The notes beneath the pieces are model-generated. The model did not search any database and was not told the DNA's origin. It saw nothing but the letters and a program-made list of their open reading frames with translations. Positions 13,899 through 40,740 of a stretch of 64,000 nucleotides of DNA are shown here, in pieces (positions within the stretch are counted from its first letter, which is position 1; every line of letters begins with the position of its first letter). Position numbers and translations under genes: made by a program. Source of the DNA: Aradus depressus (Eukaryota; Arthropoda; Insecta; Hemiptera; Aradidae). The stretch spans positions 15,059,601 to 15,123,600 of the forward strand of contig OY759225.1 in assembly GCA_963662175.1 (NCBI GenBank), read 5' to 3'.

Positions 13899-14740
13899 CA
13901 AGTAATTAGATTTATCAGTCCAACATATTTTTTTATTTTTAACACAACTAGTTTCGGCAATTTGCCATCTTCAGGTGGTGAATCTGAACATACACAAACC
14001 AAAAATTAGATTAGAATTTACAGTAGGTAGATGTTTGCTAGCGACTGTAGAATTCAAAATTCTGGGGGTATTGAGGGTCAGTCAATGATGAAAACACTAT
14101 TCAATTGCCAACGTTTCGATATATTTCATATCATCATCAGGGCTATGAATAGAAGGCGTTGAACGTAAGACTTCACAGTCTTCATGCCTTCTCCTCAACC
14201 ATCTATATTCATAGCCCTGATGATGATATGAAATATATCGAAACGTTGGCATTTGAATAGTGTTTTCATCATTGACTGATCCTCAATACCCCAGAATTTT
14301 AGAATTTACGTGCTTTTACAGTTCTTGTCAATCATTAACTAATAAATAAATAAGTTACAAATAAAATATAACAATTTAAAAATACGTAACAATTACCAAA
14401 ATATTCTGAATTGAAATACCTTCCTGAAGAAGAGGTCAAGGGACACGTTCGAGTATCATCAGTTTTTAATTCAAATATTGTAACTTATTGTACTTTTGGT
14501 AATTGTTACGTATTTTTAAATTGTTATATTTTATTTGTAACTCATTTATTTATTAGTTAATGATTGACATGAACTGTTAAAGCTCGTAAATTCTAATCTA
14601 ATTTTTGGTTTGTGTATGTTCAGATTCACCACCTGAAGATGGCAAATTGCCGAAACTAGTTGTGATAAAAATAAAAAAATATATTGGACTGATATATCTA
14701 ATTACTTGTTTAACAAGTTGCTCCGCTACATCTGCCTACC
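13899..14740. mobile_element. PAL-1: long palindromic element with hammerhead-like hairpins
   Basis: Inverted arms run from 13899 ('caagtaattag') to 14709 ('ctaattacttg'), with a one-sided tail to about 14740 containing 'acatctgcctacc'. Each arm carries the same hairpin: CTGAAGA, one base, GGCAA-A-TTGCC, GAAA. It lies on the plus strand at 14633-14655 and on the minus strand at 13974-13952. The left arm is interrupted by a second palindromic element at 14022-14299. No protein is encoded. Confidence 0.85.
14022..14299. mobile_element. PAL-2: palindromic element nested in PAL-1
   Basis: Inserted in the left arm of PAL-1 with a 10-bp target duplication TAGAATTTAC (14012-14021 and 14300-14309). 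Arms of about 100 bp from about 14057 to 14299 carry an identical hairpin: CTGATGA, one base, GATAT-GAAAT-ATATC, GAAA. It lies on the plus strand at 14217-14243 and on the minus strand at 14140-14114. A one-sided tail (14022-14056, 'gtaggtagatgtttgct') resembles the PAL-1 tail in inverse orientation. Confidence 0.85.
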
Positions 14741-15019
14741 TCCTAGAAATATAGTTTATTACAAATAATACAGTAATAATAAAAAAACTTAGTTTATTAC
14801 AAATAATACAGTAATAATAATAAATCTTAGTTTATTACAAATAATAATAAAACTTTGTTTATTACAAATAATACAGTAATAATAATAAAACTTAGTTTAT
14901 TACAAATAATACAGTAATAATAATAAATCTTAGTTTATTATAAATAATAATAAAACTTTGTTTATTACAAATAATACAGTAATAATATTAAAACATACTT
15001 TATTACAAATAATACAGAT

Positions 15020-15490
15020 AATGTAAGTTATAAATGAAGAATAATTAATGGGTTTACATGTTTCGTAGAATTACTAGTTGTGCAGACGTTTTTCCCTACG
15101 TTCTAAGGCACAATTCAGAATTCACAGAGGATCAACACGGACTCAAATGCTAATGAATTCTTCATTATAAGGGCTTCACGTTTCTCCGCCCCGAGCTATT
15201 TTCATCTTTTCGTTTTAATGGAATTTTTAACTAAGTCTTCTCTACTTGATTTTTGTAGAATATTTTTTTTTTCCTGTCTCATATTTTATCCGTTAGATTT
15301 CGTCATATTTATACATACTGAAATATTGACAAAACCTGCTGGAAAGTTAGATCTTGGAGAAATTATGAAAGTTTCAAGAATTTTGGGTGAAGTTTTGTTA
15401 ACAAGAAGTGACAAGGTTGTCACTGAAGGAGAAGAAATATCAAGAACAGAAAACTTACTTTCTCAGTGATATATTATACATATATATATA
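15020..15490. other. unassigned stretch
   Basis: An 83-codon plus-strand open frame at 15218-15469 has no recognisable domain and no splice or homology support; I do not call it a gene. Confidence 0.35.
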
Positions 15491-15640
15491 AGGTTCGAAA
15501 CTCGGCCGAGGCCCTCAGCTTGTCTGGGAGGGGAAAACACCTTGAACACGCCGTCCTTCGGATGGGACGTTAAGCGATGGTCCCGAGCCTGTACGATGTC
15601 AGGAACTCATTAAAGACCCTTACCCGTCGGCGAATGAACA
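15491..15640 (+). mobile_element. SINE-A copy, internal part
   Basis: Begins inside box B (ggttcgaaactcgg) and runs through 'cacgccgtccttcggatggg' to 'ttaaagacccttaccc', where it is joined directly to the minisatellite. Confidence 0.85.
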
Positions 15641-15975
15641 TGTGTCCACCATTGCATGGCAAATACTAGCTAAAGTGCCCAGAGTTGTTCGGTGAATACT
15701 TGCTAAGGCGTTCACCGTTGCATGGAAAATACTAACAAGAGTGTTCACCGTTTTTTGGTATTTACTAGCTGGATGACCACCGCTGCTCGGTAAATACAAG
15801 CTGTAATGTCCAGCGCTGTTCACAAATATGTACTTGCTAAAGCGTCCACCGTTGCATGGTAAATATTAACAAGAGTGTTTACCGTTTTACGGTATTTACT
15901 AGCTGGGATCTCCACAGTTGCTAGACTAACGCTAGCTGGGTTGCCAACCGTTGTTCAACATACACTAGATGGGAT
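15641..15975. repeat. degenerate 33-bp minisatellite, about 10 units
   Basis: Units contain 'ccaccgttgcatggtaaata' variants at about 15646, 15710, 15745, 15776, 15809, 15846, 15878, 15911 and 15942. A roughly 200-bp higher-order period is visible (15646 to 15846). The 33-base unit keeps frame, giving 11-residue repeats on the minus strand (TVNALASIHRT, TLGTLASICHA). Confidence 0.85.
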
Positions 15976-16107
15976 CATGAATGTTTTGTCAAAGTGCCTA
16001 GGAAGCTTAGGACATATATTTCTTCATTACTTATACATATATATAGTTTTTCATTATATATATTGATCTTGATACATGTTTAAATATTCGTGTCGATATA
16101 TATACTA

Positions 16108-16591
16108 CGGGTAAAGTTAGATTAACGGTTAAACCTAGGATTACCCGGGTAAACCTAGTAGTACCCGCTGCCGCTTGGTTAAAGTCCGAAATATAATTGA
16201 AATAGTTCACGTTTCGGGCTTTACCCGGGTAAAGTATATGTTAAAGCTAGAACCTGTACTACTTCAAATATAGGAACGACGGGAGGGGCAGATATATCGT
16301 CCCGCCGGCGGAACGCCGGCAAATACGGCCCCAAATTTTGTAATATTTCGATTTCTGTTTGTTCTAGGAATTTATGTACCCAGATGAATGATTATCGCTG
16401 TTAGACAGCTTACAACAATGGAAATTGAGGTGTGGTCGAGCTAATTAATAAGTACCTAATCTTTATAGTGGAACATACGTCCACTAATGGCCTTGTCATT
16501 ATTAGTATACCCAACTTTAACCAAGCGGCAGCGGGTACTACTAGGTTTACCCGGGTAATCCTAGGTTTAACCGTTAATCTAACTTTACCCG
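16108..16591. mobile_element. MITE with perfect-looking 78-bp terminal inverted repeats
   Basis: Left arm 16108-16185 (CGGGTAAAGTTAGATTAACG...) is the reverse complement of right arm 16514-16591 with no mismatch noticed by eye. Flanked by TA on both sides (16106-16107, 16592-16593), as for Tc1/mariner-type insertion. Arms are dense in the palindrome ACCCGGGT and in TTAACGGTTAA-like words. The 330-bp interior has no coding capacity, and the two open frames over the right arm are accidental. Confidence 0.9.
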
Positions 16592-16607
16592 TAACATATA
16601 CATTAGT

Positions 16608-16730
16608 TATATCGGGAGTTATCGTGTTCACATACGGACAGATACACAGATAGCTTTTCTTTCATTTTCGACATAGGGGGTCGGAAAACATGAAAATTCC
16701 AACTTTCCCTATACTTTATATAACAGGGGA
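16608..16730 (-). repeat. REP-1 copy, minus orientation
   Basis: Complement of the hallmark ('atcgggagttatcgtgttca') directly beside the MITE, then the 'ggtcggaaaacatgaaaatt' block. The MITE probably inserted in this copy. Confidence 0.75.
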
Positions 16731-16799
16731 AGTCTAAGTGGCTTAATTGACTTAATTTTTAAGTCATTTCAGATTCTACATTTTTTTTATTATAATGCT

Positions 16800-17570
16800 C
16801 TTAATTAAAGCGAAGATTTTATAACGTTTATCCGGAACTCCATAAGAAATTTTATATGTGAATTTCAAACCCCCACAAGGACGAGACCAAACAATTTCCT
16901 AACACCAAAACACCCAAAAAACTGATCTACACAAAATTTATTATGATGATTCAGAGGTTTCTGAGTAAGACATATATTGATTTTCAATCATATTCTGTTC
17001 TATCTGTCTGTTATTTAAATATTTAAATTTTCTAAAAACATTTTCCTTTAATTCACAAAGGATAGAATGAATTAACATTCAGAAAACATTTGAGAATATA
17101 TATTCAGTTGAATAAATAAAGCTTTCATGTCTGTGTCTGTCTAAATGATTCCAACTGCACAAAATTATCAGGAAGTACCAAAATGCTTCTCTAAATGGTC
17201 CATTTTCAGAATTGTGAAGCTTCTAGTCTCTTCTTAAACAATATGAAATTCTAAAAGGGGCACAATGAAATAAGGGTTGCGAGGATACCAAAATGTTTGT
17301 TGTTCCAAAAGTAAGAACTGGGTCAGACACAAATTTCATTGGCATTTCATCCCTGGAACTGTTCCAGTTGAGAAAAAAAAAAAAAATCTTAACAAGTAGG
17401 TTTTTGTTGCTTTTTTTATGATGGCTTACTTGATTCATATCTTAATTCAACCTAAAAGCTATAATGATGCCATAAATTTGTTTAAAAGAAAGACATTTTT
17501 TTTTTTCTTATTGTCTTTTCTCTCTTTTGAATATTTTTTGTACAACAGTATAAGAAATATATACTATTGT
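16800..17570. other. REP-1-like fragments and unassigned AT-rich sequence
   Basis: 16840-17000 shows REP-1 second-half phrases ('aattttatatgtgaatttca', 'gttttcagt'-like). 17030-17570 has no recognised feature; a minus-strand open frame at 17223-17438 is unsupported. Confidence 0.4.
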
Positions 17571-17571
17571 A

Positions 17572-17963
17572 GAGGGCACCGGTAGCTCAGTGGTATGAGT
17601 GCTCCTTGTCTTCTGAGCTCAAGAACGTGGGTTCGAAACCCGACCGAGGCCCGGTAAAATAAACTTAAGCACGCTGTTCTTCGGATAGGACGTTAAGCGA
17701 TGGTCCCGACCCTGTACAATGTCAGGTACTCGTTAAAGACCCCTACCCTAGGTGAATAAAAATTTAGGGTAGGCAAAATTTAGGACTCCCACAGTAGATA
17801 GGCTATATAAACAGCTAATCTTTTTAAAACAAAATGCGACTGTTTTTTTATTGAAAACTCAACAACTCCCACAGTAGAGTCGGGCTCGTGACGAAAGAGT
17901 GCTCTGGTAGTAGGCGATATGACCTCGTAGTTAAAGCCCGGGCATGAGTCATGAAACCTAACC
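17572..17963 (+). mobile_element. SINE-A copy with CCTAA tail and internal extra segment
   Basis: Complete head with box A-like 'ggtagctcagtggtatgag' and box B 'gggttcgaaaccc'. The word 'aactcccacagtag' occurs twice (about 17785 and 17875), bracketing a roughly 90-bp segment shared with the copy at 5668-5960. Ends 'aaacctaacctaaccta', a telomere-like tail. Confidence 0.93.
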
Positions 17964-17974
17964 TAACCTATAAT

Positions 17975-18320
17975 ATTGTACAGGTTAGGTTAGGTTAGGT
18001 TTTATGACTCATGCCCGGGCTTTAACTACGAGGTCATATCGCCTACTACCAGAGCGCTCTATCGTCACTCTGGTGGACATGAGCCCGACTCTACTGTGGG
18101 AGTCCTAAATTTTGCCTACCCTAAATTTTTATTCATCTAGGGCAGGGGTCTTTAACGAGTACCTGACATCGTACAGGCTCGGGACCATCGCTTAACGTCC
18201 CATCCGAAGGACGGCGTGCTTAAGTTTATTTTACCTCCCAGATAAAATAAACTAAGGGCCTCGGTCGGGCTACGAACCCACAACCTTGAGCTCAGAAGTC
18301 AAGCACGCATACCACTGAGC
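17975..18320 (-). mobile_element. SINE-A copy, tail-to-tail with its neighbour
   Basis: Begins on the plus strand with 'caggttaggttaggttagg' and continues through the whole body to box B complement 'ctacgaacccacaac' and 'accactgagct'. Its tail faces the tail of the preceding copy, separated by about 12 bases. The 5' end runs into a PAL-type arm at 18321. Confidence 0.93.
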
Positions 18321-18395
18321 TGTGATAGTAAGATGTTAATAGAAATAAAAGACGTTGTCATCCCACTGTTTTATTTTACACCAGAACCGGTTTTT
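18321..18395 (+). mobile_element. solo arm of a PAL-type element
   Basis: 'tgtgatagtaagatg', 'aataaaagacgttgtc' and 'ttttacaccagaaccggttt' match the left end of the palindrome at 29740-30274. The hairpin region is missing, and it is followed by a minus-strand REP-1 piece (to about 18480). Confidence 0.8.
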
Positions 18396-18521
18396 GTGTC
18401 AAGCCTCCTAAAATCAATAGGTGTCGTTCTTAGAGAGTTTTAGATACACATATAAATTTTAGCGTCGATATATCTTGGTTGTTTGGGCAAAAGGGCATAA
18501 GTCAGCAAATCTGAATTTTAG

Positions 18522-18565
18522 GAGGAGACCATGCAACCAAAGCCCTACGCTCTAGCCCGCACGGC
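18522..18565 (-). mobile_element. SINE-B head fragment
   Basis: 'gaccatgcaaccaaagccct' plus 'acgctctagccc' matches the head of the SINE-B copies at 55531 and 59892-60073. Confidence 0.65.
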
Positions 18566-18599
18566 CACCATGGCTCCCAACACAAGAACTTCAATGAAT

Positions 18600-18850
18600 A
18601 TAAAGTGAATTTCCGTTGTAATGAATGTAATTCCACAAAATTTCATATGTAAAATCAAAGCCCTCTAAGGACGACAAATAATAATTTTCAGCGGAATCAC
18701 CCGAAGGAGAAATGGGAATCATAAAGGATCTAAACTCAAAAACCGTAATAACTCACGATGTAATGGATGTATCGACACAAAATTTTATATAAGAGTTCAG
18801 AAACTCTTGAGTAAAATACTTATTGTTTTTCAGTCAAATCGGTTGGTTGA
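18600..18850 (+). repeat. REP-1 second-half modules
   Basis: Repeated 'gtaatgaatgta' and 'acacaaaattttatata' blocks at about 18615 and 18760. 18851-19198 is unassigned. Confidence 0.55.
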
Positions 18851-19198
18851 TTTTAGAGGGAGAGCGAAAACTTGGAAATCAGACAAGAAAAAGTGTGAAA
18901 CCTGCTGGGATCATGGTGCCTGGGGGCAAATGCCCCCCAGAACAGCTACTGTCAGTTCAAACTCAAATAGAGCTACAAGTCCAACTTCACCAGAAGCCAT
19001 ATCAAAAGGCTAAATGAACCACATCAACCTTTCACAAGTAAAAAGTTTAACAACTTCAAATGTTCAAACAACATCCCTTTTAACTTTTATTTCTTTAAGA
19101 AACTTGAGCCGGTGTAGAACGATAAGCCTTAGGATTCTAATAAAATGATCATATTGACAGAAAGCCCCTTAAACTCATACACAAAATTTTAGGATATA

Positions 19199-19966
19199 CA
19201 GTAGAACTTCTATAAGTCGAACATCAAGGGAGACGCCAAAAAATTCGAGTTATAGAGTTTTCGAGTTATGGAGGATTCGACTTGTAAAGGTTAAGATTCA
19301 TTCTAACTAATTTTGAGTTACAGAGGTGAAATAAATAAATTACACGAGGTAACAAACATTTTTTATTATTGTTGACAGAGTACTAATTGGTAGGCCAAAT
19401 TGTTCACCAACATCTTTCTTCTTTTGACAGCTCTTCACACAGTTTTCGGTTTACGTTTCACAACACTCATGTTTTAACAATTTTATTCGTAAACTGTTTT
19501 AAAAATTGATGTGTATTGCGATAGAACCAAACTACTTCTGACAATTTTTCAATCGACAACAAATGACTTTCTTCGCTAATTTCTTAGAATTGGTAATCCT
19601 ATTTATTGTATACTCCTAAATTGTTTTCTAAGAAACAATGGTGTACAATGTCGGCAAATTCTTAAAGTCGGTAACTTATTTTTCTTCGAGCTATAGAGGT
19701 AATAAGTTTCAAATAATCGAGTTGTAAAGGTTGTAAAATAAAACATTGCCATGTTCGAGATACAGAGGTCCAATTTATTTTTTCGAGTTTTAGAGGGAAA
19801 ATATGTACCAAAATGGCTTGTAGGGACTCACTGATTATTTCGACTAATGAGGGTTGAGATTTCGAGTAATGGAGGTTTTGGGGCTTCAAGGGAAAGGAAC
19901 AAAACTTTTTTTTCTAGTTTTGGAGGTTTTCGACTTATCGAGGTTCGACTTAAAGAGGTTCTACTG
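19199..19966. mobile_element. Tigger/pogo-like MITE, 768 bp
   Basis: Ends CAGTAGAACTTCTATAAGTC and the complement of CAGTAGAACCTCTTTAAGTC, flanked by TA. The terminal sequence is of the well-known Tigger type (family knowledge). The interior contains many copies of a 'tcgagtt.tagagg' motif in both directions, as subterminal repeats. No transposase. Confidence 0.88.
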
Positions 19967-19989
19967 TATTTGAAATACTATTCCTAACC

Positions 19990-20245
19990 AGGGGCGCTGA
20001 TAGCTCAGTGATATGCGTGCTTGCTTGTTGAGTAAGCTCAATCTTAAGAAATTGCAGGTTCGAAACCTGGACGTACTCCTTAGGTTTTTAATCTGGTGGT
20101 CTCAAGCCTGTAAGATGTTAGGTACGTTAAAGACCCCTACCCTAAGTGAATATATTTAGGAAGGAATAATTTAGGATTTCCACAGTAGTCAGGCTCATGT
20201 CCACCAGAGCGACAAAAGAGCACTCTGGTAGGAGGCCAATAAATT
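19990..20245 (+). mobile_element. SINE-A copy, diverged head
   Basis: Head with box A-like 'tgatagctcagtgatatgcg' and box B 'ggttcgaaacctgg', then the body to 'gagcactctggtaggagg'. The head carries an extra 'gagtaagctcaatcttaaga' stretch. Confidence 0.85.
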
Positions 20246-20289
20246 TAAGATTACATAACATTTTTGTATATAAAAATTTGTTAGAATGA

Positions 20290-21720: not shown

Positions 21721-22085
21721 ATTAATGAATCACCAGCTAAGTACTTCCCCAAGAGGGAATAATCAATTACGGTTTCTCACTGACTTACACTTGTTACTTG
21801 TTCTCCATGAAATTTAAAAAAAAAAACAGTATTACTTGAAACTTTTATGTTGTAATTTATTTTCCTGGGGAAGTGTTGAAGGATCATCCATCACTGTCGA
21901 CTGATGTTTAAGTCAGTTTTCGATTAATAAGGAATTGTTCATGTTCAAGACCATCCGATAGCTGGTCTTATTGACGTTATTCACAATAGACATTTGTTCA
22001 GCGTTCAGCTGGTATCTTAGACTGTACATAGGTATATATAATGTGGCTATAAAAATACTTTCTTCTAATAACAGATTTAATCCTA
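21720..22085. other. REP-1 end motif and unassigned sequence
   Basis: 21720-21790 contains 'gaatcaccagctaagtactt' and 'gggaataatcaattacg'. Nothing recognised from 21790 to 22085. Confidence 0.4.
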
Positions 22086-22087
22086 GG

Positions 22088-22258
22088 TTAGTTTGTGCAG
22101 TAGCTCAGAGGTAGAGTGATAGTCTACTTAGCTCAAGATCGTGGGTTCGAAACCCAGCCGAGGTCTTAGGTTTCCTTCGGATGGGACTCCAATAATAGAG
22201 TTGGGCTCATGTCCACCAGAGCGACGAAAAGGCCGTTTGGTAGTAGGTGATATGACTA
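22088..22258 (+). mobile_element. SINE-A-related copy with a different tRNA-like head
   Basis: Head 'gcagtagctcagaggtagag' (box A) and 'gtgggttcgaaacccagc' (box B) differs from the common head, while the body end ('ctcatgtccaccagagcgac', 'gtagtaggtgatatgac') is of the SINE-A type. A large internal deletion is present. Confidence 0.75.
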
Positions 22259-22412
22259 AACAATTTTTACTGAGGCCATAAATATAAGCGATATCTTGTA
22301 AAATATACAAAGTATAGTGGTCTCAATTTTGATCTGATTTTGGCCAAAATCTACTCAAATCAAAGTTGGCACATGTTGTTGAATTAGAGCGCTCACAACT
22401 TCCCAATCATAT

Positions 22413-22605: not shown

Positions 22606-22639
22606 TAGAAAATACGCCATATTCGACTCAAATTGTGAT

Positions 22640-23989: not shown

Positions 23990-25112
23990 GGTTTGTCAAC
24001 TGAGTCTCACAAGTTTGAGCAATTGCCCAAACGCAGTGAAATTAAATAAAGTTAGGAACTGGAATCCGTTGAGGGAAAGATCTCAAGCTGTGAGTTTCTT
24101 AACAGTGTCGGGGAAGTGGTGACTAATTGTCCGGAATGTCCAATTCAGTGTAGACACAGTACGCAGACGACTCGCAGAAATTGACCTGCACTCGAGAGCT
24201 ACCGCTACTGGACCTCTACTCACCCCAGCTCGTCTTTAGTTTGCTTGAGTTTATGAGGCATGGACAGAGAATGACTGGGGGCATGTTCTGTTTTCAAACG
24301 AGTTCAGATTTTCTCAGTAAGAGTGTGGAGAAGATGAAAAGAGCGATACGCTCAATGCACTAGAGCGGGAAGAGTACAGTTTGGAGGTGGATCGGTGATG
24401 GTTTGGGGAGGCATCACTTTAGAAGCCAAGACCGATCTCCACGTATTCCGGAGGCCGACCCTGAATGCACATGCGTATGTTGCTGAAGTCCTACAAAATT
24501 ATGTGATGTCTTTTGCTCCATTAATCGGGGAAGATTTTATCTTCATGCAGGACAATGCTCGGCCGCATGTTGCAAATGTTGTATCTGTACCTTAATGAGG
24601 TCGGTATTCGTACCCTGGAATGGCCAGCCCGCAGTCCTGACCTTAATCCTATTGAACACCTTTGGGACGAGCTGAAAAGGTGCATCCGCCGCAGACCAAA
24701 CCCTCCCCTTGACTTACAAGAAGTGAGAACTGCTTGGTGGAAGAATGGGACGGGATGCCTCAAGGAAGCGTGGCTAGTCTCATCAGAAGCATGCCAACAA
24801 GACTTCAAGCACTTATTCAAGCTAGGGGAGGTAACACTCGTTACTAAGGGAAAAAAAGCGTGTGGAAATTTCAGTTATTGGAAGAAATCTGATGTAACAT
24901 CTTTTTTTAAAAATAAAGTAGGTATTCTGTTTTTTTAAAAATTAAATAATGTTTTTTCTCTTATAAAATAATGTTCTCATCCATTTTGTTGTTTTTCTAT
25001 ACATTATATCAAGTATTCTAAGGATAAAAAAAAATTTGACAACTTCTAGCATTCAAATAAAAAATATGAATGAAATTGAAGGTGCGCCGCTTTTTTTTCT
25101 GTTGAGTGTAGA
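23990..25112 (+). pseudogene. Tc1-type transposon with broken DDE transposase
   Basis: Degenerate plus-strand translation follows the Tc1 order. First comes VDTVRRRLAEIDLHSRA (end of the DNA-binding part, about 24150). Next comes TENDWGHVLFSNEFRFS (about 24265-24315), where family members have SDESRFS, so the first catalytic Asp is replaced by Asn. Then come FGGGSVMVWGGI (about 24385), FMQDNARPH (second Asp at 24551-24553) and EWPARSPDLNPIEHLWDELK (Glu at 24654-24656). A frameshift separates the last two blocks (near 24595) and several stops lie before 24390. The right end has TACACTCAACAGAAAA as complement near 25097-25112, a plausible terminal repeat; the left terminal repeat was not found. 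Inactive. Confidence 0.9.
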
Positions 25113-26189: not shown

Positions 26190-26550
26190 AGCACCGTTGT
26201 GATTTGAAACTCGATGAAACGAAAAAGCGACACTATTGCCTTATCTTCGTTTTATTTAGTCATCTGTTTGAATTACTAACATAAAGACTTCTTGTAACTG
26301 AAAGTGAAGAGAAAAAAAGTTGCCGATAATGCTTCTTCTCTAGTCTTGCGACACAAAAAAGAGAATCATGAAAAATTCCATCGCCTCCTCCTCTCCCTCC
26401 AAAATGTTTTGAATTATGAATTTTTTTAGACTTTTAAGACTTTGTACCAATATTATAATAAATAAACCCTATAATTATCCCACTCCTGATACTGCATTCG
26501 TCTCATTCTCTCGCAGTTTCGTTTTCTGAAGGTTTCACTTCTACCGCGTG
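26190..26550. other. unassigned stretch
   Basis: No coding region or repeat hallmark recognised. Confidence 0.35.
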
Positions 26551-29725: not shown

Positions 29726-29739
29726 TTTGATATAATTCA

Positions 29740-30274
29740 TATGTGATAGTAAGATGGTGTGGGACGAGATTTCAAATAGAAATAAAAGACGTTGTCTTCC
29801 CACTGTTTTATTTTACACCAGAACCGGTTTTCGACACAACAGCGTCATCAGTGTATATCATAACATTGTATTTATTTATGTATTTATTTTAATTTTTTAT
29901 GTATATTTTATGACAACAATAATTTCTTTGGCTGTATGGTGAAAACTTTTTATATTATGTACAGACTTATTGTATTTATCAGAATGAATGGTTTTGCATG
30001 TATAGAGAGTGAGTGAACCTAGCTATCCCCACCCCTTAGAGCTATGCCAGTTGTCTTCTAACCGCTGTACTGTGTGGGTGGGGTAAGTTAATTTTATAAT
30101 TTTATTTTCTTACTCTGTACCCTGATGCTTTAGGAATTATTTATACTTTTTATTATTTATATATTTTTTGTTATTCTATGATAGATTAACCACTGATGAT
30201 GACGCTGTTGCGTCGAAAACCGGTTCTGGTGTAAAATAAAACAGTGGGAAGACAACGTCTTTTTTTTCTATTAT
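29740..30274. mobile_element. PAL-5: palindromic element with 14-bp target duplication and hammerhead-like hairpin
   Basis: Flanked by a perfect 14-bp duplication TTTGATATAATTCA (29726-29739 and 30275-30288). Arms are 'gacgttgtcttcccactg' through 'cagaaccggttttcgac' (left, about 29785-29850) and the inverse (right, about 30195-30260). The right arm has CTGATGA (30193-30199), one base, GACGC-TGTT-GCGTC (30201-30214), GAAA (30215-30218). The left-arm copy has a 3-base deletion in the core. A one-sided tail (29740-29785) is shared with the solo arm at 18321. No protein encoded. Confidence 0.9.
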
Positions 30275-30593
30275 TTTGATATAATTCACCATTAACTATA
30301 AACAGAATTGAAAGCAATTTAAGGACTTACCTATGTTGTGCTGGGGGAAAAGTTGTTCTACTACATTGTAATAGTTTGATTTTAGGCAACGGCTATGCCA
30401 ATATGAAATGATTCAGACAATGGGAGATAGAGAGTGATCTATAAGCGTGATTGGTATAAGAAAGTCCTGTAATGGCCACATCACCTATATATATATATAT
30501 ACTTTTTTTTTTTATTATTATAATTTTTTTTTATGTTTATGTCATCCCTTCATATATATTTTATTTTTATAATTTTTCATAAAAACTACCAAT

Positions 30594-31770: not shown

Positions 31771-31771
31771 A

Positions 31772-32019: not shown

Positions 32020-32500
32020 ACAGGGTGTCCTTTTTATGGCCCGGCTGAATTTCTCTTGAACCGATATCGTTATAAAAAAAATAAAAAATACGTATTTAAT
32101 ATTTTTCAGTCTAGTTTAAAATTTCGAATGCAAACAATAAAAGCAATTTAACATTATTACTATAATTAGGAAGCAAATTAGGTTTATTGGAATTAATACC
32201 GAAACAAACAAAATGTTTTTTTTTTTAAATGTTGAACCATAACTTCGTAATTGTTTGACCAATTTAAAATCGAATTGCACCGTTGATTTCAGCGTAAAAA
32301 ATCCTTTAAAATGGTATGTCGGAAGGTATAGGGTCTTATTTGAAATTTTTGAGTTGTACTGGTCCTGGGGTACCCCGTATAATTTTTTTTTCAAAAACAG
32401 GTCGAAATTTTAAACTAGACTGAAAAATATTAATACTTATTTTTTATTTTTTTATAACGTTATCGGTTTAAGAGAAATTCAGCCGGGCCATCTAAAAAAG
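32020..32500. mobile_element. Tc1/mariner-type MITE with about 110-bp terminal inverted repeats, right end lost
   Basis: Left end TA then CAGGGTGTCCTTTTTATGGC (from 32020). Inverted arms about 32020-32130 and 32400-32500 share 'ttctcttgaaccgat', 'aatatttttcagtctagttt'. The expected right terminus (GGACACCCTG, TA) is missing here because the junction runs into the Jockey element, but it is present in the partial duplicate at 33985-34078. The 92-codon open frame inside is unsupported. Confidence 0.85.
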
Positions 32501-32502
32501 AC

Positions 32503-32507
<5 letters not shown>

Positions 32508-32537
<30 letters not shown>

Positions 32538-33874
32538 TCGCCGAAAAAATCTTAATTCTTTATTTTGAATATTTACAATCGGTATACACCATGAGTAAAT
32601 TTGATGAAAGACAAAACATTAAAGAAAGAGAGAAAAAATAAAATAAAAGAAAATATATATATACATCGAAAGAATATGATTGTGTACAAAATAATAATAG
32701 AGAAAAAATAAAAATAAATAATAATAATAATAAGAACTCTGCAATTAATATAATATGTACAAAACAAAGAGAAAATATTAAATTTAAATAATAATAAACA
32801 TAAACATAAGAATAAAATAATAATATTGATATAATAAAATGAACATGAAAACCCTTCAACTCGAAACACCCCCGGTTGCCTGCCATCCCCATCCCTCCAA
32901 CTTAATGGGGGGAGGGGAGGCCACGGGGGCACGAGTGATCCCCCCTGTCTTCTCGCCCCTCCAATCACTGTCCAGCAGTGGAGGCAGGCCAAGAAGGAGG
33001 AGAGTTGAAGGTAAGAGTATTACATGAGGGGAGAAGCTGGTCATCACCGGCACTCCCTAAATATTTTTGCTACAGTAGCAGGTCTCTCGGCCAGCGCCGC
33101 CTCAGTCTTCGGGGGGGATTATCTGGATGGGAATGGGATGACAAGAGTCGAGCAGCTGGATTTACATGGGAAGAAAGGTTAGAGTGGAATTTGGAGAAGC
33201 GGGACTTGATGAGGTCAATAACATAGGGAACTTTAAGGTCATTATGGAGGGTAAGGTTGGACACATAGAAGGGTGCATCGACAATTGTTCTTAGGACTTT
33301 GGATTGGAAGGACTGGATACGCTTGATGTTAGATGGCTTAGCACAACCCCATAATTCAAGTCCGTAGGTCCATATAGGTTTTATTATTGTCTTGTAAATG
33401 GTCAGTTTGTTTTCAGTGGATAGTTTGGATTGTCTGTTGAGCAGCCGGTATAGCAGACCAAACCGTCTGTTCAGCTCCTGTCTTTTTAGTCGTGTATGGG
33501 GGTTCCATGTTAGTCGTCGGTCTAGATAGAACCCAAGGTAGCGAACTTGATTGGAGGCAGGGATTGGAATATTATTGAAGGAAATCGGAGGACAGGATTG
33601 GCGTCTCAGAGTGGCTACACTTCTCTTCGTTGATTCTCACTCGCCACTGCCGACACCAATCCTCTATGTGGAGAAGGTGCTGTTGGAGATTTTGGGAGGC
33701 TATGGTAGGATCTTGGTTGGAAGCAAGGATAGCTGTATCGTCGGCAAATGTTGCCAGGAGAGTGTTAGGATTGGAAGGAATATCAGCAGTGTAAACTGTA
33801 TAGAGGATGGGACCGAGGACACTTCCTTGGGGGACCCCCGCTTCAACAGGCTCATAGTCAGAGTACTCATTACC
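32508..33874 (-). mobile_element. 5'-truncated Jockey-clade LINE with RT motifs and poly(A)
   Basis: Minus strand, reading from 33855: GVPQGSVLGPILYTVYTADI (RT motif 4), LATFADDTAILASN (catalytic FADD at 33748-33737) and DWCRQWRVRINEEKC. After a frameshift near 33610 the LGFYLDRRLTW, YGLELWGC and FQSKVLRTIVDAPFYVSN blocks follow, and the C-terminus ends RRLRRRWPRDLLL near 33070. The 3' untranslated region runs to a poly(A) tail, seen as T-run 32508-32535. The flanks hold a 13-bp target duplication with one mismatch, AAAAAGACTGATT (32495-32507) and AAAAGGACTGATT (33875-33887). The N-terminal endonuclease and RT motifs before motif 4 are missing. At least one frameshift disables ORF2. Confidence 0.92.
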
Positions 33875-33883
33875 AAAAGGACT

Positions 33884-34215
33884 GATTAAGATGTAAATAG
33901 TAACATTAAGTGTTTAGTTGATCCACATTCCTATTATTTGGTTCTAAATTGATTTTCTGAAATTTAAGTAATGTGGTTAAAAATATTAAATACGTATTTT
34001 TTATTTTTTTTATCACGTTATCGGTTCAAGAGAAATTCAGCCGGGCCATCTAAAAAGGACACCCTGTATAAACCGGAAATTGGAGAGTCAGATAATTTCA
34101 TGGTCTGGTGATACAGTGATTAAGATGTAAATAGTTGCATTTAAGTGTTTAGTTGATCCACATTCCTATTATTTGGTTCTAAATTGATTTTCTGAAATGT
34201 AAGTAATGTGGTTAC
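33884..34215. repeat. duplicated host segment and second MITE arm
   Basis: 33884-33978 ('gattaagatgtaaatag' to 'gtaatgtggtta') is repeated at 34118-34215 with few changes. Between them, 33985-34078 is a copy of the right arm of the MITE at 32020-32500, ending properly GGACACCCTG then TA. Confidence 0.85.
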
Positions 34216-34323
34216 TTTTGGACGAAGGTGATTGATTCCGAGGTCAAGTTTTCAATGGAATTTCTCGGTTGAAGGTCCCCTGAATACGAATTGATACGTC
34301 GCGATGATGTATGTGTGTGTTTT

Positions 34324-34398
34324 TTGTTAGTTAATGTGACTCATGCCCGGGCTTTAACTACGAGCCCGACTAAGGGTCATTAACGAGTATCTATAGTA
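34324..34398 (-). mobile_element. SINE-A 3' fragment
   Basis: 'tgactcatgcccgggctttaac'-type end (read 34339-34360) fused to 'cattaacgagtatct'; most of the body is deleted. Confidence 0.8.
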
Positions 34399-34399
34399 C

Positions 34400-34590
34400 G
34401 AGTAATCCTATCACATACAGAAAACTACTTTTAACACAAAACAATGAAGAATAGGATATTTCAATGAAAATAAACAACATAATATGTTGTTTATTTTCAT
34501 TGAAATATCCACTTACCATTTATAGTTCTTCTACTTATTCACTCATATTATGAGTAAATAAGTAGATGAACTATAAATGGTAAGTTCGAA
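34400..34590. repeat. hairpin-containing arm of a long inverted repeat (right), plus second palindrome
   Basis: Inverted copy of 31772-31930. It is followed by a second palindrome centred near 34546 ('catttatagttcttctactt' and its complement), so this side carries one more inversion than the left side. 34591-34960 is unassigned. Confidence 0.85.
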
Positions 34591-34965
34591 TATTAACAAA
34601 ATGAAACTTCACCAGGGCTATCAAGATCAACAATGAGTACATGACTGACAAACATAAAGGATTTAGTTTTTAACAATACAAAACGTAAAAGAGAACTAAA
34701 TAAAGAGGTCATTGCAATTTTATCTTGACAAACTTTTGTTTGCTTGCCAGTTTGAAAATTAATGCAATCTAGAGATGCTCTAGTCAGTAAATTTCTGCAT
34801 CACTTATCTCTATTTCATTAGATTAATACCCATAAATCTTAATTATTTGTGCAAGAACCAATTTTTCAAGGTTATTGGACAGATTCCAAATCACATCCCA
34901 AGAATCGTTTTTCTCCCTTATTTTTTATTCAGAATAAGAAGGTATTTAGTAAGTTAGTGGTGTAT

Positions 34966-35335
34966 TAATTCCACAGCTAAACGAAGTATAGGCAAAGTTA
35001 TGTAACCGGTCAAAAATTCGATTCCGAGTTTTCAACGGAATTTTATCTTTTCCAACCTATAAATTCCAAATATCTATGTAAAAAAAAATTTCTGTCTGTC
35101 TGTGCATCACGATAACTCCCGATAGATTGAATGAATGTATCAACACAAAATTTTATATCTGAATCCAGAACACTCTCACGACGACATCTATTATTTTTCC
35201 GCCAAATCAAAGAGAAAGGGAGAATTAGAGCTTTACATAAGAACTCTAATAACTGTCGATAGAATGAATGTAATCGACACAAAATTTTATATGTGTGACC
35301 AAAACCGTATATGGACAACATAAATCGACCCGCAA
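34966..35335 (+). repeat. REP-1 copy, near complete
   Basis: 'gaagtataggcaaagttatg', 'ggtcaaaaattcgattccga', 'cacgataactcccgatagat' near 35108, 'acgacatctattatttttc' and the second module 'aactgtcgatagaatgaatg'. Confidence 0.85.
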
Positions 35336-35389
35336 CATTTTTATTTACCAATCCATTTACAGATTTATAATGCAAATTCAAAATCAGCC

Positions 35390-36132
35390 CCAGATTCCTT
35401 AGCTATAAATTGAACCAATGTAAGCTCTGACTGGGGGGCGGGTTCCGGTGGGGGGCCTGGGCTTGGGGTTGCTGGCTTGGCTGGGGGTCTGTGGGGGGCA
35501 CTGTCGGGGCACTGGTCTATAGACCCAGGAGCTCCGAAGGTCTGGACGGCCGGCACTATATGCAGGCCTTCCTTCAGGAGCCTCCACTCCAGTCACTGGT
35601 CGGCGCTATGAATATTGTTTTGGGTGATGTGGTAGGGCGGTGCCTCCGGCTGTCCCCCGGCTTGACTGGGGGTCTGTGGGGGGCACTGGTCTATAGACCC
35701 AGGAGCTCCGAAGGTCTGGACGGCCGGCACCACATGCAGACCTTCCTTCAGGAGCCTCCACTCCAGTCACTGGTCGGCGCTAAGAGTATTGTTTTGGGTG
35801 ATGTGGTACGGCGGTGCCTCCGGCTGTCCCCCGGCTTGGCTGGGGTCTGTGGGGGGCACTGGTCTATAGACCCAGGGCTCCAAAGGTCTGGACGGCCGGC
35901 ACTACATGCAGACCTTCCTTCAGGAGCCTCCACTCCAGTCACTGGTCGGCGCTATGAATATTGTTTTGGGTTATGTGGTACGGCGGTGCCTCCGGCTGTC
36001 CCCCGGCTTGGCTGGGGCCGCTTGCTTGGGCCCTCTGCCTGGGCTCCTCCCTCCAGTATCCCGTCTTTAGCAGAATTATCTTTTATAGTGTAGTTTAAGA
36101 ATAGCAATGGCTAGTGTGGTGTCTGCCGAGGG

Positions 36133-36159
<27 letters not shown>
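35390..36159 (+). repeat. GC-rich insertion: 174-bp tandem repeat ending in poly(A)
   Basis: About three 174-bp units ('actggtctatagaccc' at 35511, 35685 and 35858), with a partial unit to about 36020, then a unique GC-rich end and a 27-A run at 36133-36159. Base composition is unlike anything nearby. A 200-codon plus-strand frame (35491-36093) spans the repeats because 174 is a multiple of three, but it is repetitive, has no known domain and runs on both strands. The pure A-run suggests retroposition. A partner target duplication was not found. Confidence 0.8.
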
Positions 36160-36163
<4 letters not shown>

Positions 36164-36267
36164 TTCAGCCAAATTGAATGAAGGGGAGAGGCTTAACTCA
36201 AAACTGCAATTACTTTCAAATGATATGTACATATACACATTGTATGTAGGTACCTATATATTTAATG

Positions 36268-36352
36268 AGGGTTCCAGTAGCTCAGTGGTATGTGTGCTTG
36301 CTTATTGAGCTAAAGATAGTGGGTTCGCAACCCGGCAGAGGCCCTTAGTTAA
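36268..36352 (+). mobile_element. SINE-A head only
   Basis: Box A 'cagtagctcagtggtatgtg' and box B-like 'gtgggttcgcaacccggc', stopping after 'gaggcccttagtt'. 36353-36835 holds only AT-rich sequence and a (TA)n run at about 36748-36772. Confidence 0.85.
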
Positions 36353-36742
36353 ATAACTAAACATTGCTCTTCTCTTTTTGAAAAAAGTATAACTCATAAA
36401 AGAATTAATTTTTTAATGCCCTTCCCCATTTCATGAAGTCAATAGATACAACAAAAAAAAAACTTCAACTAAAAATGTTAATGTTAGAGAAAATCCTTTA
36501 CATGGAAACGGAATTTTATCCTCACTTTCAAAAAGAATAATATAATCACAATAAAGAATCGTGTTTCATATCCAAAAACATTATTTGTTACAAAACTTTA
36601 ATTTTTTCGAGTTCCTCCACACCTTAAAGGTCAGTCGAATGTACGTTATTGTTTTATTTATTCATTTATAATTTTTTATTTATTCATTTATATATTTTTC
36701 ATTTATTTATTTAGACTTTTTTGTTTATTCATTTATAATTGG

Positions 36743-36777
<35 letters not shown>

Positions 36778-36835
36778 TTTGTTTTTTTAATATATTGTTA
36801 TAGTTACATTGTTTTCTTTTTCTTTTCTATATCTG

Positions 36836-37135
36836 AGGGCGCCGGAAGCTCAGTGGTAAGCGTGCTTGCCTTCTCAGCTCAAGGTCTTGGGTTCACAACC
36901 CAGCAGAGGCCCTTAGTTTATTTTATCTGGGAAGTAAAATAAACTTAAGCACGCCGTCCTTCGGATGGGACGTTAAGCGATGGTCCCGAACCTTTTCGAT
37001 GTCAGATAATCGTTAAAGGCCCTAGGTGAATAAAAATTTAGGGTAGGCAAAAGTCATGTCCACCAGAGTGACGAAAGAGCGCTCTGGTAGTAGGCGATAT
37101 GGCCTTATGTCAAAGGGTCATGAGTCATATTAACT
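36836..37135 (+). mobile_element. SINE-A copy, nearly complete
   Basis: Head 'gggcgccggaagctcagtgg', box B-like 'gggttcacaaccc', body with 'gcgctctggtagtaggcgat', tail 'attaactaactataa'. Confidence 0.92.
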
Positions 37136-37139
37136 AACT

Positions 37140-37912
37140 ATAATGTCTATTTACTTCTTGCCCTACTCTACTTAACCTCATCCAAAATATTTTCCTCAAT
37201 AAATGTCTGGAGGGAGGCTCCTTCAGAGAAAATACCTCAAAGCCCCAAAAAACTGTAGATCTACTGCTACATTAAAGAAATATAGAGGGAGTCATACTTA
37301 TAGACAAAGTTAAGAAAATTGACAAAGTTGAGAAACTTGACAAAGTCATACAAAATAAATTTTTACTGTCTTGTTAAGGCTTTTAAGGGGGAAAATATTG
37401 AAGGCATTATATCCTTGCAAGTTTTTTTCTTTTTAATGGCAAGTATCAATTTCACTTAGAAATTCTGTAAGATGAATGATTTTCTGCTTGAATTTATTTT
37501 ATGAAAGAAATTTATGATAAACCTCACCATAAAAATAAATCAAGTTAGTTACGTTATTCCTTTTATTAACCCCCGACGCAAAAGGAGGGGTGTTATAAGT
37601 TTGAAGCCTTTGTCTGTGTGTCTGTGGCATCGTAGCTCTAAGACGGCTGAACCGATTTCAAAGCGTTTTTTTTCGTTTCTAAAGCTGGTATTTGCGAGAT
37701 GATTCTTATCCATGTTTGGTGTAAATCGGGTATGCTGTCTCCAAGATATTCAGGTTTCATCAATGCCTGTGTAGAGATCTCGGCCTCTATTACAGCTAGA
37801 GACTTGATGTTTGAGCTTAAATGTTTATAAGGCCAAGTCCCTCTCTCCCCCCCACCAACAAGGTTTCAGTAAAAAAAAATTGTGTTTCTTAAACTTCTCT
37901 GGGATGTTCCAC
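37140..37912. other. unassigned; common insect-type repeat near 37560-37760
   Basis: 37565-37770 includes 'taacccccgacgcaaaagga', 'tctgtggcatcgtagctcta' and 'ggctgaaccgatttc', a phrase set found widely in insect dispersed repeats (recalled, not searched). No coding content. Confidence 0.5.
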
Positions 37913-38116
37913 TTTTTGTTGTTTCCGGCATTTTTTCCTCCAGAGGTGTCTTCTTTTTTCCTTCGTTGGACAATATTTCGGGACAATTGCAGGTCCGGTC
38001 ACTATGAACTGTTCATAGTGACCAGAAGAAGGGACCTGCAATTGTCCCGAAATATTGTCCAACGAAGGAAAAAAGAAGACACCTCTGGAGGAAAAAATGC
38101 CGGAAACAACAAAAAG
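37913..38116. mobile_element. PAL-4: palindromic element with degenerate hammerhead-like hairpin
   Basis: Arms 'actttttgttgtttccggca' ... 'ggacaatatttcgggacaat' and their complements meet at about 38013. Right arm: CAGAAGA (38023-38029; T to A versus the family core), one base, GGGAC-loop-GTCCC (38031-38048), GAAA (38049-38052). The left arm lost the core. Open frames across it are accidental. Confidence 0.8.
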
Positions 38117-38578
38117 TAAAAAAAAATTTTTTATTGAGAAACATATTTTTTGAGTCGAGTTTCATGGTGTTTATAGAAGTCTATATTTGACTGAGTGCTC
38201 AGGTCCCCAGACGCAAGTAACGAATTGGAAAGTCATACACATGAGATATTCTTTTCCCTGCGCCTTTTCTTTATTACCAATAGATTTATGTACACGCCCC
38301 TTCAACCAAAAAGAAAATTAGGTTTTTATACGAAAATCCTAATATTGAAGGCTGGCTTGACTTCTAACTTCATTCAATATTCCTACCTTACCAGCCGTCT
38401 CTCAATATAATATTAATGGCAAAATTCGATCTCGGCAGATGGCTGATAGGAATTTTTTGAAATTCAATTTTTCAACAGTACTACCGATAATAATAATAAT
38501 AATTTGTATTTTCGTTAAACCAATACATAGTAATAGGATACGTCAAAATAATTTATACATTAAGGGGGGTAGCAAAAC

Positions 38579-38700
38579 TGTGAGCACGCCGTCTTTCGTA
38601 TGGACGTTAAGCAATGGTCCAGAGCCTGTACGGTCAGGTACTTGTTAATGACCCAGCGCTCTGGTAGTAGGCGATATGACCTCGTAGTTTGTCTTGACAA
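38579..38700 (+). mobile_element. SINE-A body fragment
   Basis: 'gagcacgccgtctttcgtat' to 'ggcgatatgacctcgtagtt', with an internal deletion between 'ttaatgaccc' and 'agcgctctgg'. Followed by a REP-1 end motif ('cggtgaatcaccggcaat', 38730-38760). Confidence 0.85.
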
Positions 38701-38848
38701 CCTAGTCAGTAGGCGTTTTGGGATAGTTTTCGGTGAATCACCGGCAATATACTTCCCCAGCATAAAAGTTTTAGGGTCTTCTGAATCCTCATATGAACTG
38801 TGTCGATATATTCATAACATCGATAGTTATTATAATACAGACAGGACA

Positions 38849-39113
38849 GGGCGCCGGTAGCTCAAGCTTGCGTTCTAAGCTCAAGATCATGGTTTCGAAA
38901 CCTGGCCGAGGCCCTTAGTTTATTTTATCTGGGAAGGTAAAATAAACTTAAGCATGCCGTCCTTCGGATGGTCCCTAGCCTGTACGATGTCAGGTACTTG
39001 TTAAAGACCCCTGCCCTAGATGAATACAAATTTAGGGTAGGCAAAATTTAGGACTCCCACAATAGTTTCGGGCTCGTAGTTAAAGCCCAGGCATGAGTCA
39101 TAATAACTATTAT
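38849..39113 (+). mobile_element. SINE-A copy
   Basis: Head 'gggcgccggtagctcaagct' (box A shortened), box B 'ggtttcgaaacctgg', body, end 'ggcatgagtcataataacta'. Confidence 0.9.
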
Positions 39114-39253
39114 AGACAGGAATTTTTTTTTTATTCTTGGAATCAGGTAAACATGAAAATTCGTTGAAAATTCAACATCGATTTTCTGACCTACTGCAAC
39201 TTACTACTTACTATACGATTTTTAAATGATAGCTTTATAATTTCATCATATTA

Positions 39254-39604
39254 TGGGTTAGGTTAGGTTTTATGACTCACGCCCGGGCTTTAACTACGAG
39301 GTCATCTCGCCTACTACCAGAGTGCTCTTTCGTCGCTCTGGTGGACATGAGCCTGACTCTATATACAGGAGTCCTAAATTTTGCTTAAACTAAATTTTTG
39401 TTTTATTCACCTAGGGTAGGGGTGTTTAACGAGTACCTGATATCGTACAGCCTCGGGACCATCGCTTAACGTTCCATCCAAAGGACGGTGGGCTTAAGTT
39501 TATTTTACCTCCCAGATGAGGAACCAGAACTAAGGGCGTCGGTCGGGTTCGAACCCGCTATCTTTAGCTCAGAAGACAAACACGCATACTGAGCTGAATC
39601 CGCT
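39254..39604 (-). mobile_element. SINE-A copy with TTAGG-like tail
   Basis: Starts 'gggttaggttaggttttatg' on the plus strand and ends in the head complement 'gcatactgagctgaatccg'. Box B complement 'gggttcgaacccgc' is intact. Confidence 0.93.
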
Positions 39605-39629
39605 ATAATAAATACCTTTTTAAAAAATC

Positions 39630-39960
39630 GCAAGGAATCACCGGTTACTTCCCCCCATTTTTTCCGTTTGACTTCGCGGAAAAGTATTAGATGCCATCCT
39701 ATTGGAGTTTTGAGTTCATTTTTATAATCTCATGTTGATACATTCATTACATTGGCAGTTATGGGATTTTTGATTTGAGTACTCTCTGATCCACCCCTCC
39801 ACTATGGCTGATTCCTCTGAAAATTTATAGCTGTCTACCATAAAGGGCTTTGAATATACATATAAAAGTGAAATTTTGTGTTAAGCCTTCCCCCCTAATT
39901 TCCTTTAGCCGATTTGACTGAAAGATGTCCACAGACCAATTTTTTTTTTTTTTTCATGTT
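39630..39960 (-). repeat. REP-1 copy, minus orientation
   Basis: Complements of the second and first modules ('attacattggcagttatggg', 'tagccgatttgactgaaaga'). Confidence 0.75.
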
Positions 39961-40282
39961 TTAATTACGAGGTTGGAAAACTTGAAATTTCATTGAAACC
40001 TCCTCATCGAATTTTTGACAGATTACATCGCAAAGCTGAGGAAGTAAAAAAAAATCTGAAGAAATAAGTGAAACGAGTCAGTTTGAGATATGAATTGTGG
40101 GATTCGAGCCAGCAATCCGGAGAGCTCTCATTTGGATAACACTATTGCCTGGAGGACGACTTTGGAATACAAATGGCCTCCACAAAATCACAGGTAATCT
40201 GATAAATTCCAACCTTTATTGCACCCTGAATATCAATTTGTCATCAAAGGTAGTTTTAGTGTAAAAAGCCAAATCTTTGCTT

Positions 40283-40410
40283 TACTTCCCCCAGGTATAC
40301 GAAGTATAGGGAAAGTTATGTAATCGGTTAGAAATTCGAACTTGAGTTTTCAACGGAATTTCATGTTTCCTGCCCTTGATACACTAAAAAAAAAGTGTGC
40401 GTCGTGGGTG
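40283..40410 (+). repeat. REP-1 start fragment
   Basis: 'acttcccccaggtatacgaa', 'agggaaagttatgtaatcgg', 'gttttcaacggaatttcatg'. Confidence 0.8.
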
Positions 40411-40449
40411 TATATTTTTGGTTGAAAATAATTTTTAACTGAAAGTAAC

Positions 40450-40740
40450 TTAAATAATTAATAAGATGTATCAGTCCAAGAGAACTTATTTTAACCACTA
40501 GTTTCGTCAGTCAAGCAGACATCATCAGGTGGTGAATCTTATTGGAGAAGATGTCAAAGGACTCTATCATCTGGTCCCTGATAGGTGTTCAGTCCTTTGA
40601 CATCTTCTCCAATAAGATTCACCACCTGATGATGTCAGCTTGACTGATGAAACTAGTTGTAGTTAAAATAAATTCTGTTGAACTGATACATGTTATTAAT
40701 TATTTAACAAGTAAGTCCAGTACATCTGCCTACCACCAAG
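40450..40740. mobile_element. PAL-3: palindromic element with hammerhead-like hairpins
   Basis: Arms about 40450-40577 and 40590-40706. Right arm, plus strand: CTGATGA (40626-40632), one base, GTCAG-CTTGA-CTGAT (40634-40648), GAAA (40649-40652). Left arm, minus strand: CTGATGA (40528-40522), one base, GTCTG-CTTGA-CTGAC, GAAA (40505-40502). One-sided tail 'tacatctgcctaccacc' matches the PAL-1 tail. Confidence 0.88.

Follow-up and report, generated by a model that had tools for sequence, protein, structure and literature searches.

The palindromic elements and their ends

The stretch of DNA analysed here, referred to as the window, comprises 64,000 nucleotides of contig OY759225.1 of Aradus depressus and carries five palindromic elements, PAL-1 to PAL-5 (Table 1). 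Each consists of two inverted arms, in which lies a hairpin resembling the core of the hammerhead ribozyme. The evidence presented below makes it very probable that these palindromes are insertions of paired, hammerhead-bearing repeats (pseudo-long terminal repeats, pLTRs) of Penelope-like elements (PLEs). An initial annotation of the window, made from the letters alone, had listed the same five elements, and each of its coordinates is no more than a few bases away from the start of an element or of an arm.

The sense strands of both arms run outwards, so the arms stand head to head, and this inverted arrangement of the pLTRs is found in all five elements. The PAL-1 arms are interrupted by PAL-2; once PAL-2 and one copy of its duplication are skipped, they align without gaps and are identical at 214 of 223 positions. 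PAL-2 is nested in PAL-1 with an exact 11-bp duplication, and the uninterrupted target site is kept in the other PAL-1 arm as a single inverted copy (14586-14596). PAL-1 and PAL-3 agree in 96 of 128 aligned columns and are thus divergent copies of one family, which makes the five elements representatives of four families.

A tail is present at one end only of every element. Measured from the core position A9, the tailed end lies at 113 nt in PAL-1 and PAL-2, at 109 nt in PAL-5 and at 118 nt in PAL-4, the last value being 115 nt plus 3 nt counted by hand because the tailed arm of PAL-4 has no A9. The corresponding value of 113 nt for PAL-3 is not independent, as this end was placed by comparison with the PAL-1 tail. 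The untailed ends, located by hand, are 71 (PAL-1), 76 (PAL-2), 73 (PAL-3), 76 (PAL-5) and 86 nt (PAL-4) from A9. All five tails contain CATC at +91 to +102, for which the chance is 4.6% per random 18-nt zone, the zone having been picked post hoc, and their last 30 nt are 63-67% A+C.

Four of the five elements are flanked by target-site duplications of 11 bp (PAL-1, PAL-2) or 14 bp (PAL-5, PAL-4), with an A+T content of 82-93% by hand count. The clear cases are the exact duplications of PAL-2 and PAL-5. Random 60-nt flanks taken in pairs share an exact word of 11 bp or longer in 1.9% of cases; since most of the flanks searched were longer than 60 nt, the chance of a shared word is somewhat above this value.

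Table 1. Palindromic elements, their hammerhead units and flanking duplications. Positions are those of the window. Hammerhead strings are given in the order stem I, core plus extra base, stem II, GAAA, stem III word. R1 is the covariance model described in the text; its E-values are rough because the calibration was short.
Feature	Position	Strand	Description and basis
PAL-1	13898-14751		Head-to-head 223-bp pLTR arms, interrupted by PAL-2; 42-nt tail at right end
PAL-1 left target-site duplication	13887-13897	+	TAGTTTATTAC; by eye at arm end
PAL-1 right target-site duplication	14752-14762	+	TAGTTTATTAC; by eye at tail end
PAL-1 left-arm hammerhead	13945-13980	-	Motif scan, stem test; R1 16.5 bits, E 0.024
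PAL-1 right-arm hammerhead	14630-14664	+	CAC/GTG, CTGAAGA + T, GGCA/TGCC, GAAA, ACTAGT; predicted cleavage after T14661; motif scan, stem test; R1 16.9 bits, E 0.02
PAL-2	14022-14298		Inserted in PAL-1; 37-nt tail at left end
PAL-2 left target-site duplication	14011-14021	+	TTAGAATTTAC; shared flank word
PAL-2 right target-site duplication	14299-14309	+	TTAGAATTTAC; shared flank word
PAL-2 left-arm hammerhead	14106-14146	-	Motif scan, stem test; R1 25.3 bits, E 2.1e-4
PAL-2 right-arm hammerhead	14214-14250	+	GCC/GGC, CTGATGA + T, GATATG/TATATC, GAAA, ACGT; predicted cleavage after T14247; motif scan, stem test; R1 25.3 bits, E 2.1e-4
Sixth fragment, PAL-5 family	18314-18396	-	5'-truncated single pLTR end, 98% over 57 bp to PAL-5; likeness starts at hammerhead GAAA; end about 2 nt from PAL-5 tail end (by eye); tail shortened
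PAL-5	29740-30274		76-bp arms with 346 nt between; 33-nt tail at left end
PAL-5 left target-site duplication	29726-29739	+	TTTGATATAATTCA; shared flank word
PAL-5 right target-site duplication	30275-30288	+	TTTGATATAATTCA; shared flank word
PAL-5 right-arm hammerhead	30189-30230	+	ACCA/TGGT, CTGATGA + T, GACGC/GCGTC, GAAA, AACCGGTT; predicted cleavage after C30226; motif scan, stem test; R1 12.1 bits, E 0.26, partial
PAL-4	37882-38114		Identical 86-bp arms; 29 nt beyond the left arm, which starts at 37911; 32-nt tail by end difference
PAL-4 left duplication	37868-37881	+	AGTAAAAAAAAATT, low complexity; shared flank word
PAL-4 right duplication	38115-38128	+	AGTAAAAAAAAATT, low complexity; shared flank word
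PAL-4 right-arm hammerhead-like unit	38020-38059	+	GAC/GTC, CAGAAGA (U4A) + A, GGGAC/GTCCC, GAAA, ATAT; motif scan, stem test; missed by R1
PAL-3	40450-40744		PAL-1 relative; 40-nt tail at right end, end placed by likeness to PAL-1
PAL-3 left-arm hammerhead remnant	40495-40534	-	One stem II mismatch; R1 14.6 bits, E 0.069
PAL-3 right-arm hammerhead	40624-40660	+	AC/GT (2 bp), CTGATGA + T, GTCAG/CTGAT, GAAA, ACTAGT; motif scan, stem test; R1 13.5 bits, E 0.13

Hammerhead units in the arms

Both strands of the window were scanned for C[TA]GANGA followed by 0-2 nt, a stem II that is 4 bp or longer and GAAA. This gave seven matches, in both arms of PAL-1 and PAL-2 and in the right arm only of PAL-3, PAL-4 and PAL-5, whereas 60 dinucleotide shuffles averaged 0.22 matches and never gave more than 2. 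The core pattern ascribed to the five elements by the initial annotation is thereby borne out. The spacer between A9 and stem II is exactly one base in all seven matches and all five elements; this base is T in four elements and A in PAL-4. Core words that had been described as fixed are indeed so in four elements, which have the exact CUGANGA...stem II...GAAA core, the exception being PAL-4 with A for U at core position 4. The stem II sequences do pair in all five, except that GGCAA/TTGCC, as first proposed for PAL-1, leaves a 1-nt loop and is better replaced by a 4-bp GGCA/TGCC with a 3-nt loop.

Stems I and III and a cleavage site, which had been missed in the initial annotation, were found here. 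In all five elements the last A of GAAA starts a self-complementary word of even length, the base after this word is not G (H17), and A15.1-U16.1 is present as well, which gives a UH site in each of them. The combination of such a word with H17 has a chance of 0.089 per element in random flanks from the same window. When a stem I of 3 bp or more is required in addition, four of the five elements still qualify, with a chance of 0.006 each. A laxer scan, in which core mismatches were tolerated and stems I and III were scored, gave 25 for PAL-5, 21 for PAL-2 and 19 for both PAL-1 and PAL-3, all above the best score in 20 shuffles (18). The only further place, at 26191 on the minus strand with a score of 14, was rejected, as the shuffles average 0.65 places with a score of at least 14.

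Core, self-complementary stem III word, UH site and short stem I together support the hammerhead assignment, and as far as primary sequence can tell, the units match the minimal type-I hammerhead reported for PLEs. The window elements have the PLE trait of a pLTR with a minimal hammerhead lacking helix III. Because the stem III word is self-complementary, it cannot close on itself, yet it can pair two molecules. Reviews describe PLE hammerheads without helix III, for which cleavage as a dimer is possible (PMC6155905; PMC7761336; PMC6466107). Type-I cores with a stem III that is absent or reduced to a short word are common to these small dimer-cleaving hammerheads and to the window units. The window arms are inverted rather than in tandem, however, so that no hammerhead dimer can form within one transcript. 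Small PLE variants that cleave as dimers were reportedly also described by Lunse, Weinberg and Breaker in 2017 and by Cervera and de la Pena in 2014.

The extra nucleotide and hammerheads of viral contigs

The base inserted before stem II had been noted as non-canonical in the initial annotation and given as a caveat. At most one or two nucleotides inserted between A9 and stem II are tolerated (PMC10085705). Two hammerheads in viral contigs matched a pattern derived from PAL-2, and the one at locus L003 (3728-3695, minus strand) combines stem I TCGCC/GGCGA, an extra U, stem II GGAGC/GCTCC, an 8-bp stem III and C17. A wider scan of viral contigs with CTGATGATGG N6-20 CCGAAACG covered at least 120 stretches, which are a non-random sample. 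Among the matches listed, 126 carry the extra U and represent 94 distinct core strings; stem II is at least 4 bp long and flush with the U in 114 of these 126, and in 86 stems I and III are present too, a test that random flanks pass in 4.5% of cases. The cleavage-site base is C in 82 of these 86 listed full hammerheads. The pattern CTGATGAAGG gave 40 matches in viral contigs, 7 with stem II and 3 as a full hammerhead.

The extra base is thus present in many viral-contig hammerheads and is no objection to those of the window. The two sets share CUGAUGA, U, stem II and GAAAC, whereas the viral-contig ones mostly have a hairpin stem III and C at the cleavage site and are not retroelements. Pattern scans of the viral contigs gave no match to words of the PAL-1/PAL-3 type or the PAL-5 type. 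The sole match in genome contigs (L001, Maribacter) has no stem II by eye and was rejected. Vertebrate PLE hammerheads have an extra A; the vertebrate-like pattern CTGATGAAG...CGAAACGTCG gave 0 matches.

Run with no positive control, Rfam reported no hammerhead in two viral-contig loci with the E-value limit at 1 (L002, L003), in 15 viral loci at the gathering threshold (13 of which, all but L020 and L082, pass the test for stems II, I and III), or in three loci with the limit at 10 (L024, L051, L044). The extra-U hammerheads of viral contigs may be an uncatalogued subclass, and they suggest that curated models overlook a set of real hammerheads. Two short stretches of the window with the PAL-5 and PAL-2 units likewise gave no Rfam hammerhead.

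The covariance model R1 was built from 19 viral-contig extra-U hammerheads and included no window sequence. Its members were hand-picked for varied length among sequences passing the stem test, and they aligned cleanly; their stem II, in which the pattern used for the search itself fixes two of five pairs, has 24 cells changed on both sides compared with 6.5 in shuffles. A model from the window units themselves was dropped, as MAFFT misaligned them across the variable loops. R1 was run with filters off on both strands of the window. The top seven matches all lie in PAL-2, PAL-1, PAL-3 and PAL-5, and the next one has an E-value of 2.5. Five of the seven alignments run through the hammerhead hairpin (both arms of PAL-2 and PAL-1, and the left arm of PAL-3). 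As the R1 sequences came from PAL-2-derived patterns, the PAL-2 score is partly so by construction, and the fair tests are PAL-1 and the left arm of PAL-3, both of which are weak matches.

Comparison with Penelope-like elements

Inverted pLTRs with short 3' extensions are listed for PLEs in a curation guide (PMC8969392). PLEs of bdelloid rotifers have head-to-head inverted pLTRs, an optional 31-bp tail, duplications of 8-10 bp and captured spacers (PMC3846280). In the Pen families of Adineta vaga, the inverted pLTRs are 193-218 bp long, compared with 223 bp in PAL-1, and further points of likeness to the window elements are a tail of some 31 bp on one side, a captured spacer and short target-site duplications (PMC3846280). 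In contrast to Pen, the window elements consist of pLTR pairs only, without a recognised open reading frame (ORF), and a reverse transcriptase of this kind was not found in the window.

A second comparison is offered by PAc, a Poseidon PLE of the lizard Anolis whose ORF begins at stem II. Reverse transcription of PAc starts 111-118 nt into this ORF, an optional tail of 30-40 bp lies between two start sites, and its protein cleaves both strands of the DNA and extends them (PMC11167929). PAc resembles the window elements in the placement of the tail between two reverse-transcription start sites and in the distance of the start, both predicted for the window, and the ends of the window elements lie near its in vitro start sites. 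Unlike the PAc ORF, a frame opened by the window ATG soon meets stops.

The Penelope link suspected in the initial annotation is supported by this published anatomy of PLE insertions, namely inverted pLTRs, a one-sided tail and duplications. A new mobile family based on structured RNA, also suggested there, is not supported; the palindromes look like new examples of known PLE footprints, not a new element type. Among the open-access papers searched, we found none that joins a hammerhead with a palindromic inverted-repeat retrotransposon, and none in which CUGAUGAU appears together with a hammerhead.

Assessment of the interpretations

Long inverted arms and target-site duplications are also what one would expect of palindromic relatives of DNA transposons (foldback elements or miniature inverted-repeat transposable elements) that are moved by a transposase and contain the hammerhead-like word incidentally. 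The window inverted repeats at 17653-18235 and 16096-16603, which have no match in the hammerhead scan, may be such elements. For the five palindromes we consider this origin improbable: their duplications vary in length (11, 11, 14 and 14 bp), their ends are asymmetric with a tail on one only, four families share the core, which lies about equally far from the end in each, and a 5'-truncated single-arm copy is present. Non-autonomous retrozymes, small hammerhead elements that spread as circular RNA, would account for a type-I hammerhead without recognised coding sequence in what is probably an animal host, and they are presumed to make use of the enzymes of PLEs (PMC7761336). Their hammerheads stand in direct tandem, whereas all five window pairs are inverted, so that no monomer circle could be excised from them; the window elements also have a PLE tail, and a retrozyme origin is very unlikely.

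A chance likeness, that is, palindromes with an accidental CTGATGA...GAAA hairpin, would agree with the missing Rfam match and with PAL-4, which is deviant in its core and does not rise above shuffles in the lax score. It is scarcely credible for the set, given seven matches where 0.22 are expected, the additional fit of stems I and III, and the fact that PAL-1, PAL-2, PAL-3 and PAL-5 score higher in the lax scan than each of the 20 shuffles and are the four elements ranked first by R1. The motif scan, the stem test and the lax score speak against chance for every element except PAL-4.

Several observations weigh against the interpretation of the palindromes as PLE insertions with hammerheads. 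Neither Pfam, applied to 20 of the 41 ORFs that are 90 aa or longer, nor a motif scan revealed a PLE reverse transcriptase in the window, so that the enzyme with the same ends envisaged by the initial annotation was not found there, and one GIY-YIG pattern gave no match in six frames. In the four elements with an ATG at the hammerhead, a stop follows within 2-11 codons; hence, no ORF begins there as in the lizard element. No exact target-site duplication flanks PAL-3, that of PAL-4 is of low complexity, and that of PAL-1 was placed by eye inside a tandem repeat containing its word, the longest word shared by the PAL-1 flanks being a 35-bp repeat match. The Rfam hammerhead models, a check proposed in the initial annotation, gave no match to the window at the gathering threshold or at E up to 10 in a search run with no positive control. 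The custom covariance model proposed along with it fared better in that R1 finds PAL-1, PAL-2, PAL-3 and PAL-5, but it misses PAL-4, and two of its matches are off the hammerhead: the one in PAL-5 (30187-30210) ends before GAAA and that in the right arm of PAL-3 omits stem II. Except for PAL-2, the R1 E-values are weak. PAL-4 differs in both U4A and the inserted base, and its lax score of 16 is equalled by the best match in 7 of 20 shuffles, while stem I in the right arm of PAL-3 is just 2 bp. Finally, a dimeric hammerhead appears in none of the five lowest-energy cofolds of two copies; these lie 4.3-7.6 kcal/mol under two monomers in all five elements, each time by way of other pairings. A reading of the PAL-5 cofold as stem III and stem I pairing was ruled out, the stem III word being paired with the stretch that follows it.

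Possible origin of the one-tailed palindromes

If the palindromes are PLE repeat-pair insertions, a PLE protein acting in trans would most likely cleave both strands at an AT-rich site. Inside the PLE RNA, reverse transcription would have two starting points, one about 113 nt beyond the hammerhead for the first cut end and the other about 75 nt beyond it for the second. Priming would take place on two RNAs, one per internal start site, and the copies would be joined at their 5' ends, head to head. The use of one RNA per start site would explain why exactly one end is tailed in all five elements. The authors of the rotifer study propose self-priming on an antisense template as an alternative (PMC3846280), and the data presented here favour neither this nor twin priming. 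Five such elements within 64 kb would show how PLEs leave one-tailed palindromes, and the presence of one tailed and one untailed end in all of them makes two-strand priming directly testable. A broader proposition, that extra-U hammerheads form a distinct subclass invisible to Rfam and common to phages and PLE pLTRs, and that the one-tailed palindromes record twin priming, is possible but in our opinion doubtful.

The hammerhead itself would work on tandem PLE transcripts, where two copies would pair through stem III and cleave as a dimer, a mode of action suggested by reviews. A transcript of a palindrome, on the other hand, contains one sense and one antisense copy and would form a long hairpin that buries the core. 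In the whole-element RNA folds of the four elements other than PAL-1, between 22 and 27 of the 26-30 positions in core and stem II are paired away. The window copies are thus probably inert as ribozymes, and palindrome transcripts could feed small-RNA pathways instead.

Other features of the window

In PAL-4 (37882-38119), two of the three frames are open in the tailed pLTR, and PAL-1 is alike in this respect; PAL-4 might be a PLE coding piece instead of a pure pLTR. The Rfam matches resembling microRNAs in the window derive from long hairpins. Long inverted repeats with no match in the hammerhead scan lie at 17653-18235, 16096-16603, 17888-18068 and 32031-32496 and perhaps belong to other transposon families; tRNA-like words are found near some inverted repeats (17605-18303).

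Two degraded reverse transcriptases are encoded on the minus strand at 43829-45597 and 33572-33913, the former split in two frames that overlap at 45034-45220 and the latter part of a remnant spanning 33070-33913. We take both to be of the long interspersed nuclear element (LINE) type by their motifs (QGSVLGP...YVDD, FADD). A wasp and an ant provide the nearest named relatives of one window reverse transcriptase, with 37-42% identity; these rank below better matches. An open frame at 24525-24938 on the plus strand, whose match to the DDE_3 endonuclease (28.3 bits) falls just under the Pfam cut-off of 28.6 bits, is probably a DNA transposon remnant. At 35506-36017, a 174-bp unit, a multiple of three, is repeated three times within an open frame of 220 aa that has no Pfam match above the cut-off. 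Long tandem arrays with units of 106 bp and 151 bp occupy 46427-48307.

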